34,687 nucleotides of DNA from an uncultured Gammaproteobacteria bacterium (GTDB lineage Bacteria > Pseudomonadota > Gammaproteobacteria > GCA-002705445 > GCA-002716945), in the NCBI GenBank assembly GCA_913048065.1, contig CAJWVG010000011.1, positions 1 to 34,687 of the forward strand, given 5' to 3'. Both the position numbers and the translations under genes were made by a program. Shown here in pieces: positions 2,028 to 16,480 of the stretch. The notes under the pieces were generated by a model. The model was not told the origin of the DNA, did no database searches, and was given only the letters and a program-made list of their open reading frames with translations. The stretch's first letter is position 1, and each line of letters starts with the position of its first letter.

Positions 2028-2630
2028 ATGAGTTGGAGTCTAAAAGGGGATTATGCTGAAAGCTGCAATTGTGATTTAATGTGCCCATGTTTATATCTTC
2101 AAAGCCCAACAAAAGGTTTTTGTGAAGCTATGCTAGTATGGGATATTAGCGAAGGTAATTTAGGTGATGTAAAACTTGATGGACTAAAAGTTTCTGCATG
2201 GCTACATGCGCCTGGTCCTAATTTAACCGATGGTGGTTTTCAATTAGCATTATATATTGACGAAAATGCTTCTGATGAACAAGCTACTGCTATTGAAGAA
2301 TTATGGGGTGGAAAGCATGGTGGACACCTAGGCGTCATAGCCAGCTTGGTTGGTGAAGTGATTGGCGTAAAAAGAGCTGCTATTACATGCAGTATCGATG
2401 GTATAAAAAAATCACTCGATGTAAGTGGTGTTGGCGGCTGGGATATGGCTGGTGTTGAAAGTGGAGATGGAAAAGTTGCACAATGTAATTATCATCCTCT
2501 TGCTATTAATCCAGGATTCCCTGTAGATGTCAGCATGACAAGTAAACAAGAGTATTCAGATCATGGCAGAACATGGAATACAACTGCTGATAGAGTAGGC
2601 CTTTCCGGACCATTTACTTATCAAGCATAA
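2028..2630 (+). CDS. DUF1326 domain protein
   Basis: 200 residues matching my recollection of the DUF1326 family, whose function is undetermined. Near the N terminus is a Cys cluster, C13-x-C15-x3-C19-x-C21 with C32 behind it. Further on are H97-x2-H100 in a GGKHGGHLG turn, and C153 with H156 in CNYHP. The pattern suggests metal or thiol chemistry, but that is inference. There is no signal peptide or membrane segment. AGGAGA just upstream gives one of the clearer ribosome sites in the window and fixes the ATG. The gene is alone: a divergent spacer precedes it and a strong intrinsic terminator follows. Confidence 0.8.
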   Translation: MSWSLKGDYAESCNCDLMCPCLYLQSPTKGFCEAMLVWDISEGNLGDVKLDGLKVSAWLHAPGPNLTDGGFQLALYIDENASDEQATAIEELWGGKHGGHLGVIASLVGEVIGVKRAAITCSIDGIKKSLDVSGVGGWDMAGVESGDGKVAQCNYHPLAINPGFPVDVSMTSKQEYSDHGRTWNTTADRVGLSGPFTYQA

Positions 2631-2695: not shown

Positions 2696-4069
2696 ATGTC
2701 AGAAAATAAAATAGAAAATCAAGAAATACTTAAAGCAATCAATGCTTTTAGCCAAAATAATTTTAAAGAAGCTGAAAGTATTTGTATGCAAGTTTTATCG
2801 AATGAAAATAATGCTGATGCAAATCATATTATTGGCTGCATTAGAATGGGAGAAAAAAAATACGATGAAAGCATAGGTTTTATAAATAAAGCTTTGAAAC
2901 AAAAACCAGATGACATTGGAATATTAATATCACTAGGTTGTGTTTTAAGCTCTAAAAAGGACTATAAAGAATCTATTTTAATTTTCAAAAAAATAATTAA
3001 ACTCAAAGATGATATTTCCCAGGTATATTTTTATTTAGGTGAGGCATTAAGAAAAACAGAAAAACTAGAAGATGCCCTTGTATCTTTTAAAAAATGTTTA
3101 TCTATAAGTCCAGACCATATTGGCTGCCAATTACTAATAGGAATAATGTATGAAGAGCTTAAAAAATTTGACCAGGCTATAGAATCTTATAAATCATGCA
3201 TTCAGACTAATTCTGACTATCCAGAGCCACACATATATCTTGGTATGTGTTTTTTATTAACAGGGAACTATGACGAAGGTTGGAAGGAATTTCAATGGAG
3301 GTCGAAATTAAAACAAAAAATATATCAAATTGAATTCACTAAGCCCGAGTGGAAAAATGAAGATCTGACTAATAAAACACTAGTCGTCATTGCCGAACAG
3401 TCAATCGGAGAAACTTTTCAACATATTAGGTTTGTAAAACAGCTCGCTATGGAAGGCGCAAGAATAATCGTAGTTGCCCCAGATGATATAATTGATGTTT
3501 TAAAACAACAAAAATGGATTTCTGATACCATAGGTTATGATGATCAAATCCCTGAACATGATTTTTATATTTATATGATAAATATAGCACGCAATCTTGA
3601 ATGGAATCCTAAAATGGATACACAAAAACATCCATACCTAACTGCGAAAAAACAAGAATTTACTAATTGTATTAAGGGTAAAAAGAATATTGGTTTTATG
3701 AATAAGGCTGATATTAGCTTACCAAATTATAACCAAATACGTTTACCTGAAGATAAAATCAATACTATATTTAAGAAGTCAGGACATAATATTATAGATC
3801 TTTCTCTCGGATATAATTTTTCAGAACTTTCTAGTATCTTACAGCAATTAGATTTATTCATTACCATTGAAAGTGATCTATGTCATTTAGCTGGGTCTTT
3901 AGGCGTAAATACTTGGCTTATAATTCCTGTCGTTCCTAAGTATACTTGGGATATTAATTTCAAAAAAAGTACGCCATGGTACCCATGTATTGAGCTATTC
4001 AGACAGGAAATATATGGTGATTATAATTCAGTTTTAAAAAATATTGAGCAAAGGTTAACAGATGTCTAA
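2696..4069 (+). CDS. TPR protein with glycosyltransferase-9-like C-terminal domain
   Basis: 457 residues. About residues 8-200 are tandem 34-residue TPR units, with recurring phrases such as NNFKEAESICMQVL and KFDQAIESYKSCIQ. They end in a GNYDEGWKEFQWRSKL segment typical of TPR-glycosyltransferase fusions. The remainder resembles heptosyltransferase/GT9-like tails: AEQSIGETFQHIRFVKQL matches the family's G-E-Q-G-x-G-D phosphate-side motif in altered form, ESDLCHLAGSLGV matches the usual D-T-x-x-x-H-L-A-G motif, and PWYPCIELFRQ is a family-typical ending. The altered glycine motif and a shortened middle leave activity uncertain. No signal peptide is seen. It overlaps the next TPR gene by 8 nt. 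Likely role: sugar transfer onto a protein or surface polymer; substrate unknown. Confidence 0.75.
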   Translation: MSENKIENQEILKAINAFSQNNFKEAESICMQVLSNENNADANHIIGCIRMGEKKYDESIGFINKALKQKPDDIGILISLGCVLSSKKDYKESILIFKKIIKLKDDISQVYFYLGEALRKTEKLEDALVSFKKCLSISPDHIGCQLLIGIMYEELKKFDQAIESYKSCIQTNSDYPEPHIYLGMCFLLTGNYDEGWKEFQWRSKLKQKIYQIEFTKPEWKNEDLTNKTLVVIAEQSIGETFQHIRFVKQLAMEGARIIVVAPDDIIDVLKQQKWISDTIGYDDQIPEHDFYIYMINIARNLEWNPKMDTQKHPYLTAKKQEFTNCIKGKKNIGFMNKADISLPNYNQIRLPEDKINTIFKKSGHNIIDLSLGYNFSELSSILQQLDLFITIESDLCHLAGSLGVNTWLIIPVVPKYTWDINFKKSTPWYPCIELFRQEIYGDYNSVLKNIEQRLTDV

Positions 4070-4820
4070 ATTTCTAATAAGACAGGCTTTCGCAGAAGCT
4101 ATGGAATTTCATAAACAGAATAAATTTGATGAAGCAAAAGAAATTTATAATAAAATTCTAAAAGCTGATGAATCAGAACCAAATGCACATCATTTAATCG
4201 CATTAGTATTTATGGCGGAAGGTAATTTTCAGCTAGCGAAAAAACATATTGAAATTGCAATAGAAAAAGCACCCAATCAGGCAGTATTTCAGAGTAACTA
4301 TGGTAGTTTATTGCATTCAATGGGCGAGAATCAACTGGCAGTTAATGCGATTAAGAAATCATTAAAAATAGATAAAAAGCTTTTTCAGTCTTATTATTCT
4401 TTGGGGATTATTTATACTGATATGCAGGAATTTGATAAAGCAATAGAAAATTATTATAAAGCAATAGAAATTGATAAAAACTCATCGGCAGCCCATAATA
4501 ATCTTGCTAATTTGTTTAGCAGTCTAAATAATTCCGAAGCTGAATATCACTATAAGAAAACCGTCGATCTTGTTCCGGACGAGATATATCCTAGACTAAA
4601 CATATCAAACTATTATATCAAGAATTCTAAATTTGCTGATGCTAAAAATTATTTAAATGAGCTTATTGAAATGGGTTTGACGTCAAAAGAAGTATACAAT
4701 AGTTTAGGTGTTGCTCATAAAGGTCTGGAAGATATTGAAATGGCAAAGAAAATGTTTAACCAGGCTCTTGACCTCGACTCAAATTTTGATTTAGCACAAA
4801 AGAATTTAGATAGTCTATAG
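4062..4820 (+). CDS. TPR repeat protein
   Basis: 252 residues made almost wholly of TPR units from end to end, for example FHKQNKFDEAKEIYNKIL near residue 17, EFDKAIENYYKAIEID in the middle and EDIEMAKKMFNQALDLD at the end. No catalytic domain, signal peptide or membrane segment is apparent, so it is probably a scaffold. Its first repeat resembles those of the proteins at 2696 and 4868, suggesting local duplication. The ATG lies inside the end of the upstream gene (8-nt overlap), so the pair is translated together. It may present substrates to the neighbouring glycosyltransferase-like or hydroxylase-like proteins, but this is inference from position only. Confidence 0.75.
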   Translation: MSKFLIRQAFAEAMEFHKQNKFDEAKEIYNKILKADESEPNAHHLIALVFMAEGNFQLAKKHIEIAIEKAPNQAVFQSNYGSLLHSMGENQLAVNAIKKSLKIDKKLFQSYYSLGIIYTDMQEFDKAIENYYKAIEIDKNSSAAHNNLANLFSSLNNSEAEYHYKKTVDLVPDEIYPRLNISNYYIKNSKFADAKNYLNELIEMGLTSKEVYNSLGVAHKGLEDIEMAKKMFNQALDLDSNFDLAQKNLDSL

Positions 4821-4838
4821 AATCCACGACCCAAAATT

Positions 4839-4855
4839 TTTAGTTATAAACTAAA
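4839..4855. terminator. Weak bidirectional hairpin between converging TPR genes
   Basis: TTTAGTT-ATA-AACTAAA is a perfect 7-bp inverted repeat in the 47-bp spacer where the plus-strand and minus-strand TPR genes converge. It is AT-rich and lacks a long T tract, so termination would be weak. No better signal is present in the spacer. Confidence 0.35.
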
Positions 4856-4867
4856 TATCTTATAAAA

Positions 4868-6451
4868 CTAATCATATAAAAGTGTTACATTTACCCTACG
4901 GTCTTCATATCTGTCGTTAAAATTAAAAGTATCTGTGGTGTGGAAAAGTTTTGAGTTGAAAATTACAGCTCTATTTGTTTTATAAGGCACAATCTGCTCT
5001 GAGGATTTATTATCTGATAAAAATTTCTTCATCTTTGGTACGCTAACTCCAGCATTATAATCCTCAAAAGCCCAGTCTTCTGGTGGAATTGCATTCCAGA
5101 TTTTTAAACCACCACTCTTTTTATCTAGGTTTGCCTCATCCGGAGTTATCCAAAAATTCACATTTACTACAGCTGGATCAGCATGTATATTAACCCCTTC
5201 TTTAGTACTTTCATATTTATATATCCATGCTTGAGTTAATTTTAAATTGTTAAATATATTTTTAAATGTTGATTTCAAATCTTCGCTTAATTTAAGCATA
5301 AATTCATTTGCCAACCCTCTACTTAAGTAAGCCCCAACATAACCTCCGTTATGAGTATATTTAAAAATGTTAGCAGTCCTGCAAAATATTTGTAATTTTT
5401 TTAGAGCATCTGGTGTTAATAAGTTATCAACAATCAATACCTCGGGTTTAGAATCTAAGTATTCAGATTCTAGTTTTTTTATATCATTATCCTCATTTAT
5501 AAAATTTTGAGAAGAAACATTTGGTGGTTTATTATATAATATTTTAGCAATATTAAGTCTCATTGTGGATGATAAATCATTTAAATCAAAACTATTATTT
5601 TTAATTTTTAGATAAAGTCTTTTTAATTCTTGATAATACTCATTAGTGAATTTTGTATTTCTTATTCCATCTACATCATTATCAATAAAAGTTAGTTGTT
5701 CATATTCATGAGTTACTAAAGTGCTTATACTTTTTTTGTTATATAAATGTTTTTCAATATAGTCTGCCAAAACTTCTTGATTAGTAGTATCCATTGTTTG
5801 AATTTTATTAAAGCATTTAATTGCTTCAGTAGAGTTGCCCAACCACAAATTAGATAATCCTAAAGATATCAGCGCAGATGATAACTTAAATTCCGGTAAT
5901 GTGTATAACTCTTTTGCTGTAATGGCATTATTAAATAATTCAATAGATTTATGAAGGTACTCTTTATTTCTATCAATCTTGTACTTTTCTTGATGCATTT
6001 CTCCGAGTCTCTGATATGCCTCTGGAAAACTATCGTTAAGTTTTACTGTTTTCTCCAAATACTCAATTGCTGCATCATAGTTTCTAATATCGGCATATAA
6101 GTTGGCACAATTAAAATAGGCTTGAAAGTTATCTTTGTCAATAGAGATTGCTTTTAAAAAATATTTTTCAGCATTCTTTGTGTCACCCAGTTCTTTATAT
6201 ACGATACCGAGGTTGTTATTCACCTCAAAACTATCTGGGTTTGATTTTAATGCTCTATTGAAATATTTAATTGCATCATTAAACATCAATTTATCTGATA
6301 ATATACAACCATGAAGATAATTAGCTGCAAAATTTGTATCATCATTCCTTAAAACAGATTTATAAATATCATCTGCCTCATCCAACTTACCTTCTTGATG
6401 AAGAGCTATTGCCTTATCGAACAATGCTTTTTTATATAATTTATCTTCCAT
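4868..6451 (-). CDS. TPR protein with C-terminal 2OG-Fe(II) oxygenase domain
   Basis: 527 residues. About residues 5-230 are TPR units (HQEGKLDEADDIYKSVLRND, DAIKYFNRALKSNPDS). A less conserved linker follows, and the last 190 residues look like a prolyl-hydroxylase-type 2-oxoglutarate/Fe(II) oxygenase. The visible metal triad is H423-x-D425 in NIHADPAVVNVNFWITPDEA and H504 in IFNSKLFHTTD, with an Arg at 518/519 in RRVNVTLLYD suited to hold 2-oxoglutarate. Family members hydroxylate Pro, Asp or small molecules. The TPR arm suggests a protein or peptide substrate, but that is inference. It faces the two plus-strand TPR genes. ATG 6451 has no clear ribosome site. Confidence 0.8.
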   Translation of the reverse strand: MEDKLYKKALFDKAIALHQEGKLDEADDIYKSVLRNDDTNFAANYLHGCILSDKLMFNDAIKYFNRALKSNPDSFEVNNNLGIVYKELGDTKNAEKYFLKAISIDKDNFQAYFNCANLYADIRNYDAAIEYLEKTVKLNDSFPEAYQRLGEMHQEKYKIDRNKEYLHKSIELFNNAITAKELYTLPEFKLSSALISLGLSNLWLGNSTEAIKCFNKIQTMDTTNQEVLADYIEKHLYNKKSISTLVTHEYEQLTFIDNDVDGIRNTKFTNEYYQELKRLYLKIKNNSFDLNDLSSTMRLNIAKILYNKPPNVSSQNFINEDNDIKKLESEYLDSKPEVLIVDNLLTPDALKKLQIFCRTANIFKYTHNGGYVGAYLSRGLANEFMLKLSEDLKSTFKNIFNNLKLTQAWIYKYESTKEGVNIHADPAVVNVNFWITPDEANLDKKSGGLKIWNAIPPEDWAFEDYNAGVSVPKMKKFLSDNKSSEQIVPYKTNRAVIFNSKLFHTTDTFNFNDRYEDRRVNVTLLYD

Positions 6452-6680: not shown

Positions 6681-6757
6681 TGGTGGGCCCGGGAGGACTC
6701 GAACCTCCGACCAATGGATTATGAGTCCACTGCTCTAACCAACTGAGCTACAGGCCC
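6681..6757 (-). tRNA. tRNA-Ile2 (anticodon CAU, probably lysidine-modified)
   Basis: A 77-nt cloverleaf on the minus strand with CCA encoded. The acceptor stem GGGCCTG pairs with CGGGCCC (one T-G wobble), the D arm contains TAGCTCAGTTGGTTAGAGCA, the anticodon loop is CTCATAA, and the T arm is GGAGG-TTCGAGT-CCTCC. The anticodon CAU could be Met or Ile2. C4-C5 in the acceptor, AGCAG after the D loop and TTGGTC in the variable region resemble E. coli ileX rather than the elongator Met tRNA, so Ile2 reading AUA after TilS modification is preferred. Its 5' end is only 3 bp past the msrA stop codon, so it is probably cut from the rpoD-msrA message. Confidence 0.85.
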
Positions 6758-6760
6758 GTT

Positions 6761-7231
6761 TTATTTACTGAAGAAATTAAATCTCTTTTTCTTTAGATAT
6801 TTTTGATGATATTCTTCTGCAATCCAAAAATTATCATCATGCTCAAGCGATGTCACTATTTTATTGTTAAATTTTTCTCTGTTTAATTCTTTTATTTTGT
6901 TTTCACTTGATAATTTTTGAAATTCATTAAGATAAAATATTGCTGATCTATATTGTGTTCCATAATCTGGTCCTTGGCTATTGAGTGTTGTGGGGTCATG
7001 TATTTCAAAAAATATGTCAAGTAGTTCATTATAGTCAATCACTTTATCATCGAAAAAGACTCTCACAGCTTCAGCATGATAAGTATCACCCCGGCAGACA
7101 TTATCATAGGTTGGTTTATCCAGCTTGCCACCAATGTAACCAACTTCAGTTTCGATTACGCCTTTTGCAGAATTAAATTTCTCTTCTATACCCCAAAAAC
7201 AGCCTGCAGCAAATATAGCTTTATCAATCAT
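6761..7231 (-). CDS. msrA: Peptide-methionine (S)-S-oxide reductase MsrA
   Basis: 156 residues, the usual size of a single-domain MsrA. The catalytic motif GCFWG places the nucleophilic cysteine at C11, followed by [22 protein letters not shown] and the [22 protein letters not shown] block that shapes the substrate pocket. The enzyme repairs methionine-S-sulfoxide in proteins using thioredoxin. It overlaps the end of rpoD by 8 nt, so the two are read from one message; this links oxidative repair to the housekeeping sigma factor only by position. A tRNA gene begins 3 bp after its stop. Confidence 0.96.
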
Positions 7232-9836: not shown

Positions 9837-11831
9837 ATGAATAAACAAGAACTATCAAATGCAATTAGGTTTCTTAGCTTAGATGCCGTAGAAAAAGCTA
9901 AATCAGGACATCCTGGTGCCCCAATGGGAATGGCGGACATAGCTTATATATTGTGGAAAAAATTCCTAAAACATAACCCATCAAACCCAAAATGGTTAAA
10001 TAGAGACAGATTTGTTTTATCAAATGGCCATGGCTCGATGTTGTTATATTCGCTTCTCCACTTAACAGGGTATAAAGTATCAATAAATGATATAAAAAAT
10101 TTCAGACAACTCCATTCGATAACCCCTGGGCATCCAGAATGTGACATAACGCCCGGCGTGGAAACAACTACAGGTCCATTGGGGCAAGGTCTGGCAAATG
10201 CCGTAGGAATGGCTATTGCTGAAAAGTCACTAGCTAAAGACTTTAATGAAAAAGACTATCAGATTATCGATCATTATACATATGCATTTGTTGGTGATGG
10301 TTGTTTAATGGAAGGCGTTTCACATGAATCTTGTTCACTAGCAGGGACATTAGGGTTAAACAAACTAATAGTAATATATGATATGAATAATATTTCGATA
10401 GATGGAGATATTTCAATTGCATTTACTGAAAATATTAAAAAAAGATTTGATTCTTATGGTTGGAATGTAATTGATGGTGTAGATGGCCATAATTTTAAAT
10501 CAATTGAGCAGTCAATAAGAAAAGCAAAACAACAAAAAAATAAACCAACGATTATTTGTATGAAGACTACTATTGGTTTTGGCTCTCCTAATAAAGCAGG
10601 AACTGGAGGAGTTCATGGAGCACCATTGGGTAAAGAGGAAGCAGAGTTAACCAGACAACGCCTTAAATGGAAATATAAACCTTTTCATATTCCAAAAACT
10701 ATTTATAAAGAATGGTGTAATAAAAAACAAGGAAAATTACAAGAAGGTATCTGGCTGAAAAAACTTAATTCCTATAAGGTTAAATTTCCTAAGAAATATA
10801 ATGAGCTTCAAAGAAGATTAAAAAATCGATTGCCAGCAACAGTTGATCAAAAATTTTCTGAATTAATATCACAAAATAAGAAATCCATGGCCACTAGAAA
10901 ATCTTCTCAAGTTGTATTGGAAAAAATTGGACCACATATACCCGAACTGATAGGTGGTTCTGCAGATCTCAAAGAATCAAATCTTGTCTTTTGGCCTGAA
11001 TCTAAACCAATGTCTAAAAATAATTTCTCTGGGAAATATATACATTTTGGTGTTAGAGAATTTGGTATGTGTGCTATCAGTAATGGTATCTTTCTACATG
11101 GTGGTTTCAGACCATATGCAAGTACATTTCTAATTTTTTCTGAGTATGCTAAAAATGCAATTAGGATGTCTGCATTAATGCATCTACCAATAATATATAT
11201 ATTTACACATGATTCAATAGGACTTGGTGAAGATGGTCCTACGCATCAATCTGTTGAACAACTGAGTACATTAAGGGTTATACCTGGCATGAGCGTATGG
11301 AGGCCGGCGGACTTAACTGAAACAGCATTATCATGGAAAAGCAGCTTGGATAAACTAAATGGACCATCATCACTAATACTTTCAAGACAAACTCTACCTG
11401 AAATTACGCGCAGTAAATCTCAAATACAATCAATACAAAAAGGTGGGTATATTATTTATGATTGTGGTAAAAAAATTAATGCTATAATTATAACATCTGG
11501 TTCTGAATTACATATTTGTCTTGAAGCCGCTAAAAAATTTAATAATTTAGGAGTTAATGTAAGAGTTGTTTCTATGCCATGTATGGAGATATTTATGTCA
11601 CAACCTAAAAATTATCAAAATAAAGTTCTGCCAGCTGAAATTGATAATATATTGGCAGTTGAAGCTGGGGTTGGTGAGTGTTGGGATAAATTTATAGGCA
11701 AAAAAGGTGATAAAATTGTTATGAAATCTTTTGGATTATCCGCACCTGGAGATAAGGCTTTAAACTTTTTTGGTTTTACGGTGAAAAATATTATAAACAA
11801 AGTAAATAAATTAATTAAAACTAATAGGTAA
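9837..11831 (+). CDS. tkt: Transketolase
   Basis: 664 residues, the normal bacterial size. The thiamine diphosphate domain shows [31 protein letters not shown] and the GDG metal/pyrophosphate motif in [14 protein letters not shown]. The pyrimidine-binding domain shows [20 protein letters not shown]. The C-terminal domain is intact. It moves two-carbon units between sugar phosphates in the Calvin cycle and the non-oxidative pentose phosphate path. Being upstream of gap, pgk and class I fba, and with rpe and rpiA elsewhere in the window, it belongs to a full pentose-triose rearranging set. No transaldolase is seen. The next gene starts 4 bp after its stop. Confidence 0.97.
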
Positions 11832-11835
11832 TAAA

Positions 11836-12846
11836 ATGACGATCAAAGTAGCAATAAATGGTTTTGGAAGAATTGGAAGAAATGTCCTTAGGGCAAATTA
11901 TGAAAATGCTTATGATAAAGAAATAGAGATTGTGGCAATAAATGATTTGGGTGATGCTGAAATTAATGCTCACCTATTAAAATATGATACTGCTCATGGA
12001 TCATTTAACAAAAGTGTAGAAACAAAGAGTAAAAAAATCCTCATAGATGGCAAAGATGAGATAATTGTACTAAGCGAAAGGAATCCAGAAAAATTACCTT
12101 GGAAAGATTTAGGCATAGATGTTGTACTTGAATGTACAGGTTTCTTTGCCTCTAAACCTGCTTCAATGGCTCATATTAATGCTGGAGCCAAAAAAGTTTT
12201 AATATCTGCCCCTGCCAAAGAGGTGGATGCGACAGTGGTGTATGGTGTTAATCATGATGTTATAAAACCAAGCGATCAGGTTGTCTCTAATGCTTCTTGT
12301 ACCACTAATTGTTTAGCTACCTTAATTAAAGATATACATGAAAAATTAAACATTGAAAATGGCATTATGACTACAATACATTCGTATACAAATGATCAAG
12401 TATTAACAGATGTTTATCATCCTGATTTAAGACGAGCGAGATCTGCAACACAATCCATGATTCCAGCAAAAACAGGTGCAGCGTCAGCTGTTGGGTTAGT
12501 TCTCCCTGATTTAAATGGTAAACTTGATGGGTTCGCCATTAGAGTTCCTACTATAAATGTTTCATTGGTGGATTTATGTTTTAATATTTCTAAAAAATCA
12601 TCTATCGAAGAAATTAATAAAATAATTAAAAATGCCTCAGAAAATAACCTGAAGGGGATTCTGGGTTATAATAATAAGCCGCTAGTGTCTATTGATTTCA
12701 ATCACTCTTCTTTTTCCTCAGTATATGACGAGAGTCTAACAAGAATGATGGATGATAAATTTTTTAAAATTTGTTCTTGGTATGATAATGAGTGGGGATT
12801 TTCAAATAGAATGTTAGATGTATCTAAAGTTCTTGCAAATGTTTGA
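11836..12846 (+). CDS. gap: Glyceraldehyde-3-phosphate dehydrogenase, type I
   Basis: 336 residues. The N-terminal Rossmann motif is [14 protein letters not shown], the catalytic centre is [11 protein letters not shown] with C155 as nucleophile, and NEWGFSNRM near the end is a substrate/NAD contact. D37 in AINDLGD favours NAD over NADP as judged from E. coli GapA, but the cofactor cannot be settled by eye. It interconverts glyceraldehyde 3-phosphate and 1,3-bisphosphoglycerate. The stop overlaps the pgk ATG by one base (TGATG), so these successive enzymes are translationally coupled. Confidence 0.97.
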
Positions 12847-14006
12847 TGATTAAACTAATCACAAATTCTCATATCATTAATCAAACTATTTTATTGAGAT
12901 TGGATCTAAATGTACCAACTTATGAGAATAAAATATTAAGTGATTTTAGAATTGTAAAATCTATTCCAACAATTAGATACCTTTTAAATAATAATAACAA
13001 AATTATAATTTTGTCACATTTTGGAAGACCAAAAGAAGGACTCAAGGATCCATCTTTAAGTTTAGAGAATATCTCTAATTACCTTGCAAAAAAATTGAAT
13101 AAAAAGATTATATTTTATGATGATTGGATTGATGGTGTAGATTTCTTGGATGCTGATATTGTAATGTGTGAAAATGTACGATTTCAGAATGGAGAGAAAG
13201 CTAACTCACCTGCTCTTTCTGAAAAAATGTCTCGTTTAGCAGATATTTACGTATTTGATGCATTTGGCGTGTCTCATAGAAAAGAATCTTCAACTTATGG
13301 TATATCAGATTATCTAGATAGTTACGCAGGCTTGCTGTTAGAAGAAGAAGTTAAAAATGCACAATCATTACTAGCAGATAGCAAGCCTCCATTAACTACT
13401 ATCATTTCAGGTGCGAAAATATCTACAAAATTAAGTCTAATAAAAAAACTAATAAATAAATCTGAAAATATTATTATTGGAGGCGGTATTCTCAATACTT
13501 TCCTATTAGCAATGGGGTTTAATGTTGGTAATTCTTTAATAGAAAAAAAGTTTATCCCCGAGGCAAAGGAAATAATCGATAGCGAGTATTTTAGCAAAAT
13601 TGTCATGCCAATTGATGTTGTGACATCTGATAACATTGATTTTCTTAACCCTAATACGAAAGAGATTTCTATGGTACAATCTAAAGATAAAATACTTGAT
13701 ATTGGTGCGCATACAATTAACAGATATATTGAAGTAATTAATAAATCTAAATCTATATTCTGGAATGGACCTTTAGGGTATGTTGAAAAAAAACCATATG
13801 ATAATGGAACGATTAAATTATCACAGGCTATTGCAGACTCTGATACATTTTCAATAGTTGGTGGTGGAGATACTATTCCAATTATTGAAAGTTTAAGAAT
13901 TCAAAATAACTTCACATGTTTGTCAACGGGCGGTGGTTCTTTATTAAAATTTATTGAAGGAAAAGATTTACCGATATTATCTAAGTTAGGTGTTTATAAT
14001 AAATGA
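12846..14006 (+). CDS. pgk: Phosphoglycerate kinase
   Basis: 386 residues from ATG 12846, which shares a base with the gap stop; a TTG one codon earlier is also in frame but less likely. Substrate-side motifs are LRLDLNVP, LSHFGRPKEG and CENVRFQNGEKAN. The hinge and nucleotide side show GGGILNTFLLAMG, WNGPLGYVE and VGGGDT near the C terminus. It exchanges phosphate between 1,3-bisphosphoglycerate and ADP, in glycolysis or, reversed, in carbon fixation. The stop overlaps the start of pyk by 4 nt (ATGA). Confidence 0.97.
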   Translation: MIKLITNSHIINQTILLRLDLNVPTYENKILSDFRIVKSIPTIRYLLNNNNKIIILSHFGRPKEGLKDPSLSLENISNYLAKKLNKKIIFYDDWIDGVDFLDADIVMCENVRFQNGEKANSPALSEKMSRLADIYVFDAFGVSHRKESSTYGISDYLDSYAGLLLEEEVKNAQSLLADSKPPLTTIISGAKISTKLSLIKKLINKSENIIIGGGILNTFLLAMGFNVGNSLIEKKFIPEAKEIIDSEYFSKIVMPIDVVTSDNIDFLNPNTKEISMVQSKDKILDIGAHTINRYIEVINKSKSIFWNGPLGYVEKKPYDNGTIKLSQAIADSDTFSIVGGGDTIPIIESLRIQNNFTCLSTGGGSLLKFIEGKDLPILSKLGVYNK

Positions 14007-15439
14007 GAAAAAGAACGAAAATAATTGCAACATTAGGACCATCATCTTCCAGCTCTAAAGTTATAACAAATTTGATAAAAGAGGGCACAGATGTATTTAG
14101 AATAAATTTATCTCATGCTTCTGTTGATCAGATAGCTAAAGTTATTTCTATTTTAAAATCTGCGTCAAATAAGTTAAACAGACCTATAGCTACATTAATA
14201 GATTTGCAGGGTCAGAAAATTCGCATAACGAATTTCAAAACAAAAAAATTTATTCAATTAAAATCCAATACCACTTTTATTTTAGATGCAGCTCTACCTA
14301 AAGATAATGGAAATCAAAAATCTGTTGGTCTTACTTATAAAAAATTACCCGAGCATCTGGATATTGGTGACGAACTATTGTTAAGCGATGCATTAATTAA
14401 ATTAGAAGTTATAAAGATAGAAAAATCTAAGATTTACACTAAAGTCATACGTGGAGGTAAGCTAAAACCATATCAAGGAATAAATAAGAAAGGAGGAGGT
14501 TTATCACTTCAAGGCATAACCGAAAAAGACATTAAGGAATTAAAAGAAGCTATAAAATTAGATATAGATTATGTTGCAGTTTCATTTGTGAAAGATGCAA
14601 AGGATATACAATCTATAAAAAAAATTATAGGTAAAAAATCTATCGGCGTTATAGCCAAAATTGAAAGGAGTGAAGCTTTAGGCAATATTGATGAAATTGC
14701 AAAAATAAGTGACGGACTTCTCGTAGCCAGGGGTGATCTAGGTGTAGAGATTGGAATAGAACAACTACCTGCTGTCCAAGACAAGCTTATTCGTAAAGCT
14801 ATATCATACGATAAAATTATTATTGTAGCGACACAAATGATGGAATCTATGATTAATAGTCGTGTTCCAACTCGTGCTGAAGTTTTTGACGTAGCCAATG
14901 CAGTTACATCAGGTGTAGATGCAATAATGTTATCAGCGGAAACAGCTATAGGACGATACCCAATAGATGTAATACAGGAGGCTAGTAGAATATGTGAGAT
15001 TGCTGAAAGAACAAATAGGAAAAGTTTAAATCTTATACGCCAAGAAAAAGAATTTATGTCTGTTGATCAGATAATTGCTATGGCTGCAGTATATAGTGCT
15101 GGTAAATCAAATATAAAAGCCATCGCTGCTCTAACGGAAACAGGTTCAACGCCATTATGGATGTCACGCATACAGTCAACCATCCCTATTTATGCAATGA
15201 CTCAAAATGATAAAACAAGTAGAAGAATATGTTTGTTAAAAGGGGTCTATTCTATTAGATTAAAAACTATCGAACATGTCCACGCAGAGGCAAATAAACA
15301 AGTAATAGATTTAATGCTAGAAAAAGGTGCTGTAAAAAAAGGAGATCTTGTGATTATTACTAAAGGAGATTTAATGGGAACGAGTGGTGGTACGAATGCA
15401 CTAAAAATTGTAGAAGTTGGAAATTTAATAGAGGTATAA
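14003..15439 (+). CDS. pyk: Pyruvate kinase
   Basis: 478 residues. Motifs in order: TKIIATLGPSS at the N terminus, FRINLSHAS, the B-domain entry IDLQGQKIRI, VAVSFVKDA, the catalytic lysine region AKIERSEALGNIDEI, VARGDLGVEIG and ATQMMESMI. The C-terminal allosteric domain is complete and ends in GTSGGTNALKIVEVG. It makes ATP and pyruvate from phosphoenolpyruvate, the irreversible last step of glycolysis. Its place between reversible enzymes shared with the Calvin cycle shows the operon also serves catabolism. The start overlaps pgk by 4 nt; fba follows after 42 bp. Confidence 0.97.
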   Translation: MRKRTKIIATLGPSSSSSKVITNLIKEGTDVFRINLSHASVDQIAKVISILKSASNKLNRPIATLIDLQGQKIRITNFKTKKFIQLKSNTTFILDAALPKDNGNQKSVGLTYKKLPEHLDIGDELLLSDALIKLEVIKIEKSKIYTKVIRGGKLKPYQGINKKGGGLSLQGITEKDIKELKEAIKLDIDYVAVSFVKDAKDIQSIKKIIGKKSIGVIAKIERSEALGNIDEIAKISDGLLVARGDLGVEIGIEQLPAVQDKLIRKAISYDKIIIVATQMMESMINSRVPTRAEVFDVANAVTSGVDAIMLSAETAIGRYPIDVIQEASRICEIAERTNRKSLNLIRQEKEFMSVDQIIAMAAVYSAGKSNIKAIAALTETGSTPLWMSRIQSTIPIYAMTQNDKTSRRICLLKGVYSIRLKTIEHVHAEANKQVIDLMLEKGAVKKGDLVIITKGDLMGTSGGTNALKIVEVGNLIEV

Positions 15440-15481
15440 TCAAAAGTATTATATAAAAGCAAAAAAATTTATGGAGTTAAA

Positions 15482-16480
15482 ATGAATACAGAAGCACTCA
15501 AAAAAACAGCAGAAATAATGATGAATAAACCAAAAGGCTTATTGGCAATGGATGAGAGCTCACCTACATGCGCAAAGAGATTTGCAGCACTTAAAATTCC
15601 TGAAACCGAAGAGAATAGAGTTCGATATAGAGAGTTGATTGTTACTACACCTAATTTATCTAATTATATAAGTGGCGCCATATTGTTTGATGAAACATTC
15701 CATCAAAAAATGAGTACAGGCATTTTATTTAGAGATCACTTAAATAGCATTGGTATTCTTCCCGGCATAAAAGTTGATACTGGCGCGAAAGATTTTTCTT
15801 GTCATCCTAACGAAAAGATCACTGAAGGTCTTGATGGATTAAGAGATAGATTGGTAAACTATGAAAAATTAGGCGCAAAATTTTGCAAATGGAGAGCCGT
15901 GATAACAATAGGCGACAATATTCCATCACAAGCATGTATTTCATCTAATTGTAATGCGCTTGCAAGATACGCTTCATTATGTCAAGAAAATAATCTTGTC
16001 CCCATCGTAGAACCAGAGGTGCTAATTAACGGAAAACACTCGATAGATAAGTGTAATACGATTACGAGAGAAACCCTAAAATGTCTTTTTGATCAGTTGG
16101 CGTTATTAAATATATATTTACCTGGCACTATACTTAAGCCAAGTATGGTTATATCCGGGGATAGTAATGATAGCCGTGCTGATTTTAAAATGGTTGCTGA
16201 TATGACAATTAAATGTCTAAAAGATATTTGTCCAGATGACTTAGGTGGTATTGCATTTTTATCTGGTGGACAAACTAATGAAGAAGCTACAACACACTTA
16301 AATCTAATGAATAAGGATTATGATTCGTTGCCATGGCGTGTAACTTTTTCTTATGCTCGTGCTATTCAGCAATCAGCTTTGAATGCATGGTGCGGTAAAG
16401 ATGAGAATAGTCAAAAATCACAAGAAATTTTATCAGAAAGAGCAAATCTATGCTCTAAAGCTTCCATAGGTGAATTATAA
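15482..16480 (+). CDS. Fructose-bisphosphate aldolase, class I
   Basis: 332 residues of the Schiff-base type common in animals, plants and some proteobacteria, not the zinc class II enzyme. Landmarks are LLAMDESSPTCAKRFAAL near residue 20, CKWRAVI, PEVLINGKH, the Schiff-base lysine in GTILKPSMVISG, and IAFLSGGQTNEEATTHLN. It joins or splits triose phosphates and fructose 1,6-bisphosphate, and may also act on sedoheptulose bisphosphate. A GGAG ribosome site sits just before the ATG. The 42-bp gap after pyk contains TATATAA, so an extra internal promoter is possible. It ends 3 bp from the converging bioD gene with no terminator between. Confidence 0.95.
   Translation: MNTEALKKTAEIMMNKPKGLLAMDESSPTCAKRFAALKIPETEENRVRYRELIVTTPNLSNYISGAILFDETFHQKMSTGILFRDHLNSIGILPGIKVDTGAKDFSCHPNEKITEGLDGLRDRLVNYEKLGAKFCKWRAVITIGDNIPSQACISSNCNALARYASLCQENNLVPIVEPEVLINGKHSIDKCNTITRETLKCLFDQLALLNIYLPGTILKPSMVISGDSNDSRADFKMVADMTIKCLKDICPDDLGGIAFLSGGQTNEEATTHLNLMNKDYDSLPWRVTFSYARAIQQSALNAWCGKDENSQKSQEILSERANLCSKASIGEL

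Follow-up and report, generated by a model that had tools for sequence, protein, structure and literature searches.

Two separately conserved loci of a small-genome gammaproteobacterium encode a likely pseudo-glycosyltransferase and a probable, uncharacterised TPR-hydroxylase

Results

Three TPR genes in the window

The stretch of DNA analysed here, referred to as the window, measures 34,687 nucleotides and is one complete contig (CAJWVG010000011.1) of the draft genome GCA_913048065.1 (1.04 Mb, 62 contigs, 83% complete) of an uncultured Gammaproteobacteria bacterium, a small-genome organism that is apparently marine, judging by isolate names and genome size. It encodes three neighbouring proteins with tetratricopeptide repeats (TPRs; Pfam TPR_1, E 1e-23 to 1e-28): GT-TPR, in which a TPR arm precedes a degenerate glycosyltransferase (GT)-like domain; a protein with TPRs only; and TPR-2OG, which ends in a predicted Fe(II)- and 2-oxoglutarate (2OG)-dependent oxygenase domain and whose gene, on the minus strand, runs towards those of the first two. 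A first-pass annotation had proposed that these proteins form a system in which a protein is hydroxylated and then glycosylated. Its three open reading frames were recovered at the same positions and lengths (Table 1), the HLAG and PWYP-LFRQ motifs that it had pointed out in GT-TPR are present and conserved, and the triad H423/D425/H504 of TPR-2OG lies at exactly these residues. As shown below, the genes of GT-TPR and TPR-2OG belong to different conserved loci, and instead of a new pathway the data indicate a TPR-hydroxylase yet to be characterised and a protein that is likely a pseudo-glycosyltransferase.

The likeness between the first repeats of the three proteins, also part of the earlier reading, is real, as they reach local BLOSUM62 scores of 59–73 against each other. 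The same repeats scored best at 68–78 against the start of unrelated TPR enzymes from distant bacteria, and since the mutual scores do not exceed these values, a special kinship of the three arms was rejected; the resemblance is ordinary for TPR arms of this kind.

Linkage and synteny

Linkage was followed in a family set of 25 genomes of about 0.7–1.2 Mb each, beyond which an order-level search yielded no further members. The GT-like domain is encoded in 20 of these genomes, the 2OG domain in 24 and both in 19, but the two genes are adjacent in a single one of the 19, that of the window. Four further genomes (G015, G022, G004 and G002) carry the pair on one contig, 118–190 kb apart, and elsewhere the genes are on separate contigs. 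Outside the family, 365 sampled gammaproteobacterial genomes contained the GT domain in 51 cases, the 2OG domain in four and both in one (G334, on different contigs), compared with about 0.6 expected by chance, so that no co-occurrence above chance is seen there. The first-pass annotation had held that scattering of the genes among relatives would speak against a joint system, and indeed none of the relatives examined shows linkage of the oxygenase gene with the GT gene. With adjacency confined to the window and no excess co-occurrence outside the family, the proposed hydroxylation-then-glycosylation system is unsupported.

Comparison of all window proteins with the loci of the relatives resolved two blocks. 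Block 1 consists of a divergent gltD-like gene followed by the genes of a DUF1326 protein, GT-TPR and the TPR-only protein, the last three of which stay together in all 13 loci scanned (11 genomes). Block 2, seen also in G019 and G022, starts with TPR-2OG, msrA, rpoD and a gene of redoxin-like type and continues with tkt, gapdh, pgk and pyk, to which G022 adds fba. The msrA-rpoD pair recurs in 21 relatives, but apart from the window only L156 and L158 have TPR-2OG next to it. The two blocks are thus conserved separately and are joined in the window at a short junction (Table 1). Downstream of the TPR-only gene, G014, G015 and G011 carry a gene whose start resembles, by eye, a DEAD-box helicase, while G022 and G019 carry another gene; the junction is therefore either particular to this lineage or, with lower likelihood, a fault of the assembly. 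GT-TPR and TPR-2OG probably became neighbours by rearrangement, and they represent two independent conserved loci, which are not supported as one enzyme system.

Table 1. Features of the window around the three TPR genes (aa, amino acids; strand "." denotes no strand)
Feature	Position	Strand	Remarks
DUF1326 protein, 200 aa, block 1	2028..2630	+	Pfam PF07040, E 6.6e-43; 5' of GT-TPR in 13/13 family loci (11 genomes) scanned
GT-TPR protein, 457 aa: TPR arm (residues ~9-205) and degenerate GT-B/GT9-like domain	2696..4069	+
GT-like domain, residues 195-457 of GT-TPR	3278..4066	+	Derived from widespread TPR-glycosyltransferase family
EQSIGE, residues 234-239 of GT-TPR	3395..3412	+	EQGxGD in wider family
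E392-S393 ... H397-L-A-G of GT-TPR	3869..3895	+	(V/I)DT of wider family altered, HLAG retained
TPR-only protein, 252 aa	4062..4820	+	Start overlaps GT-TPR end by 8 nt; 3' of GT-TPR in 13/13 family loci (11 genomes) scanned
Junction of blocks 1 and 2, 47 bp	4821..4867	.	Seen only in window genome
TPR-2OG protein (copy A) of 527 aa, TPR arm followed by C-terminal 2OG-Fe(II) oxygenase	4868..6451	-
2OG-Fe(II) oxygenase domain (predicted)	4871..5461	-	H423 (5183-5185), D425 (5177-5179), H504 (4940-4942), R519 (4895-4897)
tRNA-Met (CAU), upstream of TPR-2OG gene on shared strand	6681..6757	-	Arrangement repeated in L139, L140
msrA, member of block 2 (msrA-rpoD followed by central carbon genes)	6761..7231	-	rpoD neighbour in 21 relatives

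An Rfam scan near these genes returned tRNA only. Adjoining rpoD and msrA, a run of central carbon genes on the plus strand (9837–16480) encodes transketolase, GAPDH, a probable phosphoglycerate kinase, pyruvate kinase and a class I aldolase, and this run is kept in G019 and G022.

Origin and decay of the GT-like domain

A profile search of genome contigs found at least 565 encoded relatives of the GT-like domain in Azospirillum, Bradyrhizobium, Betaproteobacteria, Planctomycetes and other groups, and some plasmid-borne relatives are annotated as TPR-containing glycosyltransferases. Members of this wider family share with GT-TPR the TPR arm and a full-length homologous C-terminal domain with HLAG and PWYP-LFRQ. 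The structural model of GT-TPR (mean predicted local distance difference test, pLDDT, 89.4) has its best fold matches in SPINDLY and OGT (GT41), which likewise combine TPRs with a GT-B domain, although the TPR arm and GT domain of GT-TPR are shorter. This likeness is one of fold only, as no GT41 Pfam match was obtained for the window protein or the relatives scanned. The GT9 profile PF01075 did not match the window protein either, while 7 of 15 relatives give hits with E-values of 1 or less, the best being 1.3e-5. Neither the isolated GT tail nor the 2OG tail gave a significant Pfam match, scans of the full proteins against Pfam, NCBIfam and PHROG returned mostly TPRs, and profile searches started from either tail gave only chance matches among PDB sequences. 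In the distant bacteria of L064:2478-6392, L070:2566-8121 and L103:2044-9414, the TPR-GT domain sits inside long frames (1304–2456 aa) with further C-terminal parts.

The window lineage was compared with 29 distant relatives at positions where 85% or more of these agree. EQGxGD, SLQ, DT and the R of WRW are conserved by this measure yet changed in the window lineage, where EQGxGD has become EQSIGE, VDT reads IES, WRW is gone and the SLQxG loop has disappeared together with about 20 residues. The aspartate of EQGxGD is what we take to be the would-be catalytic base, by analogy with the heptosyltransferase WaaC. SLQxG is absent from all 15 aligned family members; further changes are G236S, D239E and the replacement of DT by ES or EG, and WRW is lost in g1 and g6. 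Retained are E234, G238, H397, W428, R436 and Q437.

The conservation of the two protein halves is also reversed. Among the pairs compared in the wider family, there is none in which the identity of the GT half falls below that of the TPR arm. These pairs were picked at more than 45% GT identity, a choice that biases the distant ones; close pairs nevertheless agree (e.g., L071–L095, TPR 68%, GT 89%). In the window's family, by contrast, the TPR arm is more conserved than the GT half in 148 of 153 pairs (mean identity 56% versus 44%). Meanwhile, the dN/dS ratio of the GT half is about 0.06–0.15 (NG86 method, close pairs, some of them nearly saturated at synonymous sites), which marks the domain as constrained and not a relic. 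Motif loss and the reversed conservation of the halves, together with persisting constraint, suggest that GT-TPR is most likely a pseudo-glycosyltransferase, probably a scaffold with a binding domain, in which transferase activity would have been lost. The caution of the first-pass annotation that the GT tail may instead be a binding domain is thereby strengthened.

The TPR-2OG oxygenase

H423, D425, H504 and R519 are invariant across 19 full-length TPR-2OG proteins, and R519 is the expected 2OG-binding arginine. Curated profiles match the oxygenase domain weakly (2OG-FeII_Oxy_3, best E 0.0032, among relatives; PHROG 1644 "minor coat protein", E 3.1e-8), while an annotated 2OG-Fe(II) oxygenase of Synechococcus phage S-SCSM2R is homologous to it (tblastn E 1e-21). 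Relatives of the domain occur on 17 viral contigs, as stand-alone domains where read. The marine phage oxygenases (PHROG 1644; S-SCSM2R) are thus homologous to the domain of TPR-2OG, but viral members, at about 200–256 aa, are devoid of its TPR arm. A literature search for such proteins in SAR86 or phages found nothing.

Examined for the double-stranded beta-helix fold of 2OG-Fe(II) oxygenases, the AlphaFold2 model of TPR-2OG (mean pLDDT 91.5, a high confidence) is beta-rich, and its best two-domain PDB match is AspH (E ~3e-10), with full-chain template modelling scores (TM-scores) of 0.34–0.44; the low values may be attributed to differing arm geometry. Like TPR-2OG, AspH carries a TPR arm beside a C-terminal oxygenase (PMC6817910), and the domain types assigned earlier to this protein and, through SPINDLY and OGT, to GT-TPR are therefore right in kind. 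Unlike the bacterial protein, AspH is an enzyme of the endoplasmic reticulum lumen, and TPR-2OG has a full HxD...H triad, a pattern from which AspH is reported to depart (PMC13168262). By sequence, no AspH Pfam or PDB match was found for the TPR-2OG domain. In all 171 family pairs, conservation is higher in the oxygenase half than in the TPR arm (mean 58% versus 39%), as expected for a working enzyme, and TPR-2OG is probably an active hydroxylase. The architecture suggests a protein as its substrate.

Paralogues and tRNA neighbours

The window genome contains a second TPR-2OG gene (G000:C44:440-1996, L048), which has YccV-like and TerB genes as neighbours and whose product shows 60% identity across the tail used in the search. 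A tree of 22 TPR-2OG proteins groups the copies linked to msrA in a single, fully supported clade (100/100). Copy A, the window paralogue, is found in three genomes and accompanies tRNA-Met-msrA-rpoD-tkt-gapdh-pgk-pyk in G019 and G022. In all 17 family loci examined (the window, L141-L149 and L272-L276 among them), TPR-2OG lies directly downstream of a tRNA gene, which is tRNA-Phe for copy B (14/14) and tRNA-Met for copy A (3/3). Among five distant relatives, L269 lies 65 bp after tRNA-Ser and the other four have no tRNA nearby. The position behind tRNA genes may reflect a habit of insertion or a functional co-transcription. A viral contig echoes the bacterial copies, since its stand-alone 2OG-oxygenase gene (L183:3836-4450) abuts a tRNA-Asn/tRNA-Val pair (4441-4588).

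In two distant gammaproteobacteria, the TPR-2OG gene is found near a TPR-methyltransferase gene and glycosyltransferases (L271, 151-6025) or near sulfotransferases (L270, 6647-8898). These neighbours make a wider role of TPR-2OG in modification pathways possible, and contain no pointer to GT-TPR.

Discussion

We consider it probable that the window combines two independent loci, with GT-TPR serving as a decayed scaffold together with the TPR-only protein, TPR-2OG acting as a hydroxylase, and no functional link between the two. Gene order, synteny, motif states, patterns of constraint and predicted folds are shown by the data, while the loss of transferase activity, a protein as substrate of the hydroxylase and the missing link between the loci are inferred. 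Locus 1 (DUF1326, GT-TPR and TPR-only) would encode two TPR adaptors, cytosolic in appearance. GT-TPR would descend from a TPR-glycosyltransferase akin to SPINDLY/OGT or GT9, with decay of the motifs for catalysis and nucleotide binding; its TPR arm would recruit a partner protein, the former GT domain would serve as a binding or dimerisation module, and the protein probably acts together with the TPR-only protein, whose gene overlaps its own. Locus 2 (tRNA-Met and TPR-2OG) would provide an active Fe(II)/2OG hydroxylase, to whose pocket a peptide or protein is presented by the TPR arm, as in AspH.

Several observations weigh against this interpretation. A GT-B fold is still predicted for GT-TPR and purifying selection persists, so that a changed donor instead of lost activity is possible; the D-to-E exchange at the presumed base is conservative; and the family members L011 and L012 retain EQGFGD and VDT, so that the motif loss probably took place within the family. 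The main rival is accordingly that GT-TPR is still an active glycosyltransferase that uses an altered donor on a cytosolic protein held by its TPR arm. The low dN/dS and the six retained residues agree with it, but SLQxG is lost throughout the aligned family, further motif positions are exchanged and the conservation of the two halves is reversed, and we regard continued activity as rather unlikely, though less so than any of the other alternatives. As to the oxygenase, its substrate could be a small molecule or RNA, and the junction could in principle be a draft-assembly error. Finally, GT-TPR and TPR-2OG are both near universal in the family, which also fits a shared pathway of unlinked genes. 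In such a pathway, which we think improbable, the decayed GT would be a pseudo-enzyme scaffold that presents a cytosolic protein to the tRNA-linked TPR hydroxylase.

The same near universality, the adjacency in the window and the AspH-like and SPINDLY/OGT-like folds would suit a system in which TPR-2OG hydroxylates a protein and GT-TPR places a sugar on the new hydroxyl. Adjacency in one of 19 genomes, distances above 100 kb on the shared contigs of four others, a single co-occurrence outside the family and the lost GT motifs make this just as improbable. The nearest characterised bacterial TPR-GT that we found is FlmG of Caulobacter, whose TPR domain at the N terminus binds flagellin and is followed by a GT-B domain at the C terminus (PMC7591256), a modular layout like that of GT-TPR. 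Its acceptor was not found in the window's family, where no flagellin gene was detected in any of the 25 genomes by a search that does detect flagellin in the control Caulobacter, so that an FlmG-like flagellin glycosyltransferase was rejected and is hardly conceivable here. The constant position of the family copies behind tRNA-Phe or tRNA-Met, and that of L269 behind tRNA-Ser, could mean that TPR-2OG modifies the translation machinery, be it a tRNA or a translation protein, with the tRNA adjacency being functional and not a habit of insertion. As the neighbouring tRNA differs between the copies, four of the five distant relatives have no tRNA nearby and tRNA 3' ends are common insertion sites, we deem such a target unlikely.

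Taken up again under the interpretation of two independent loci, the tempting two-enzyme operon is removed as unsupported. In its place stand two core, uncharacterised protein families of streamlined (~1 Mb) gammaproteobacteria, one a TPR-glycosyltransferase that has apparently turned pseudo-enzyme with its TPR arm under strong constraint, the other a TPR-hydroxylase that seems intact and has kept its place next to tRNA genes. Either family could make TPR-guided recognition of proteins accessible in a simple bacterial model.

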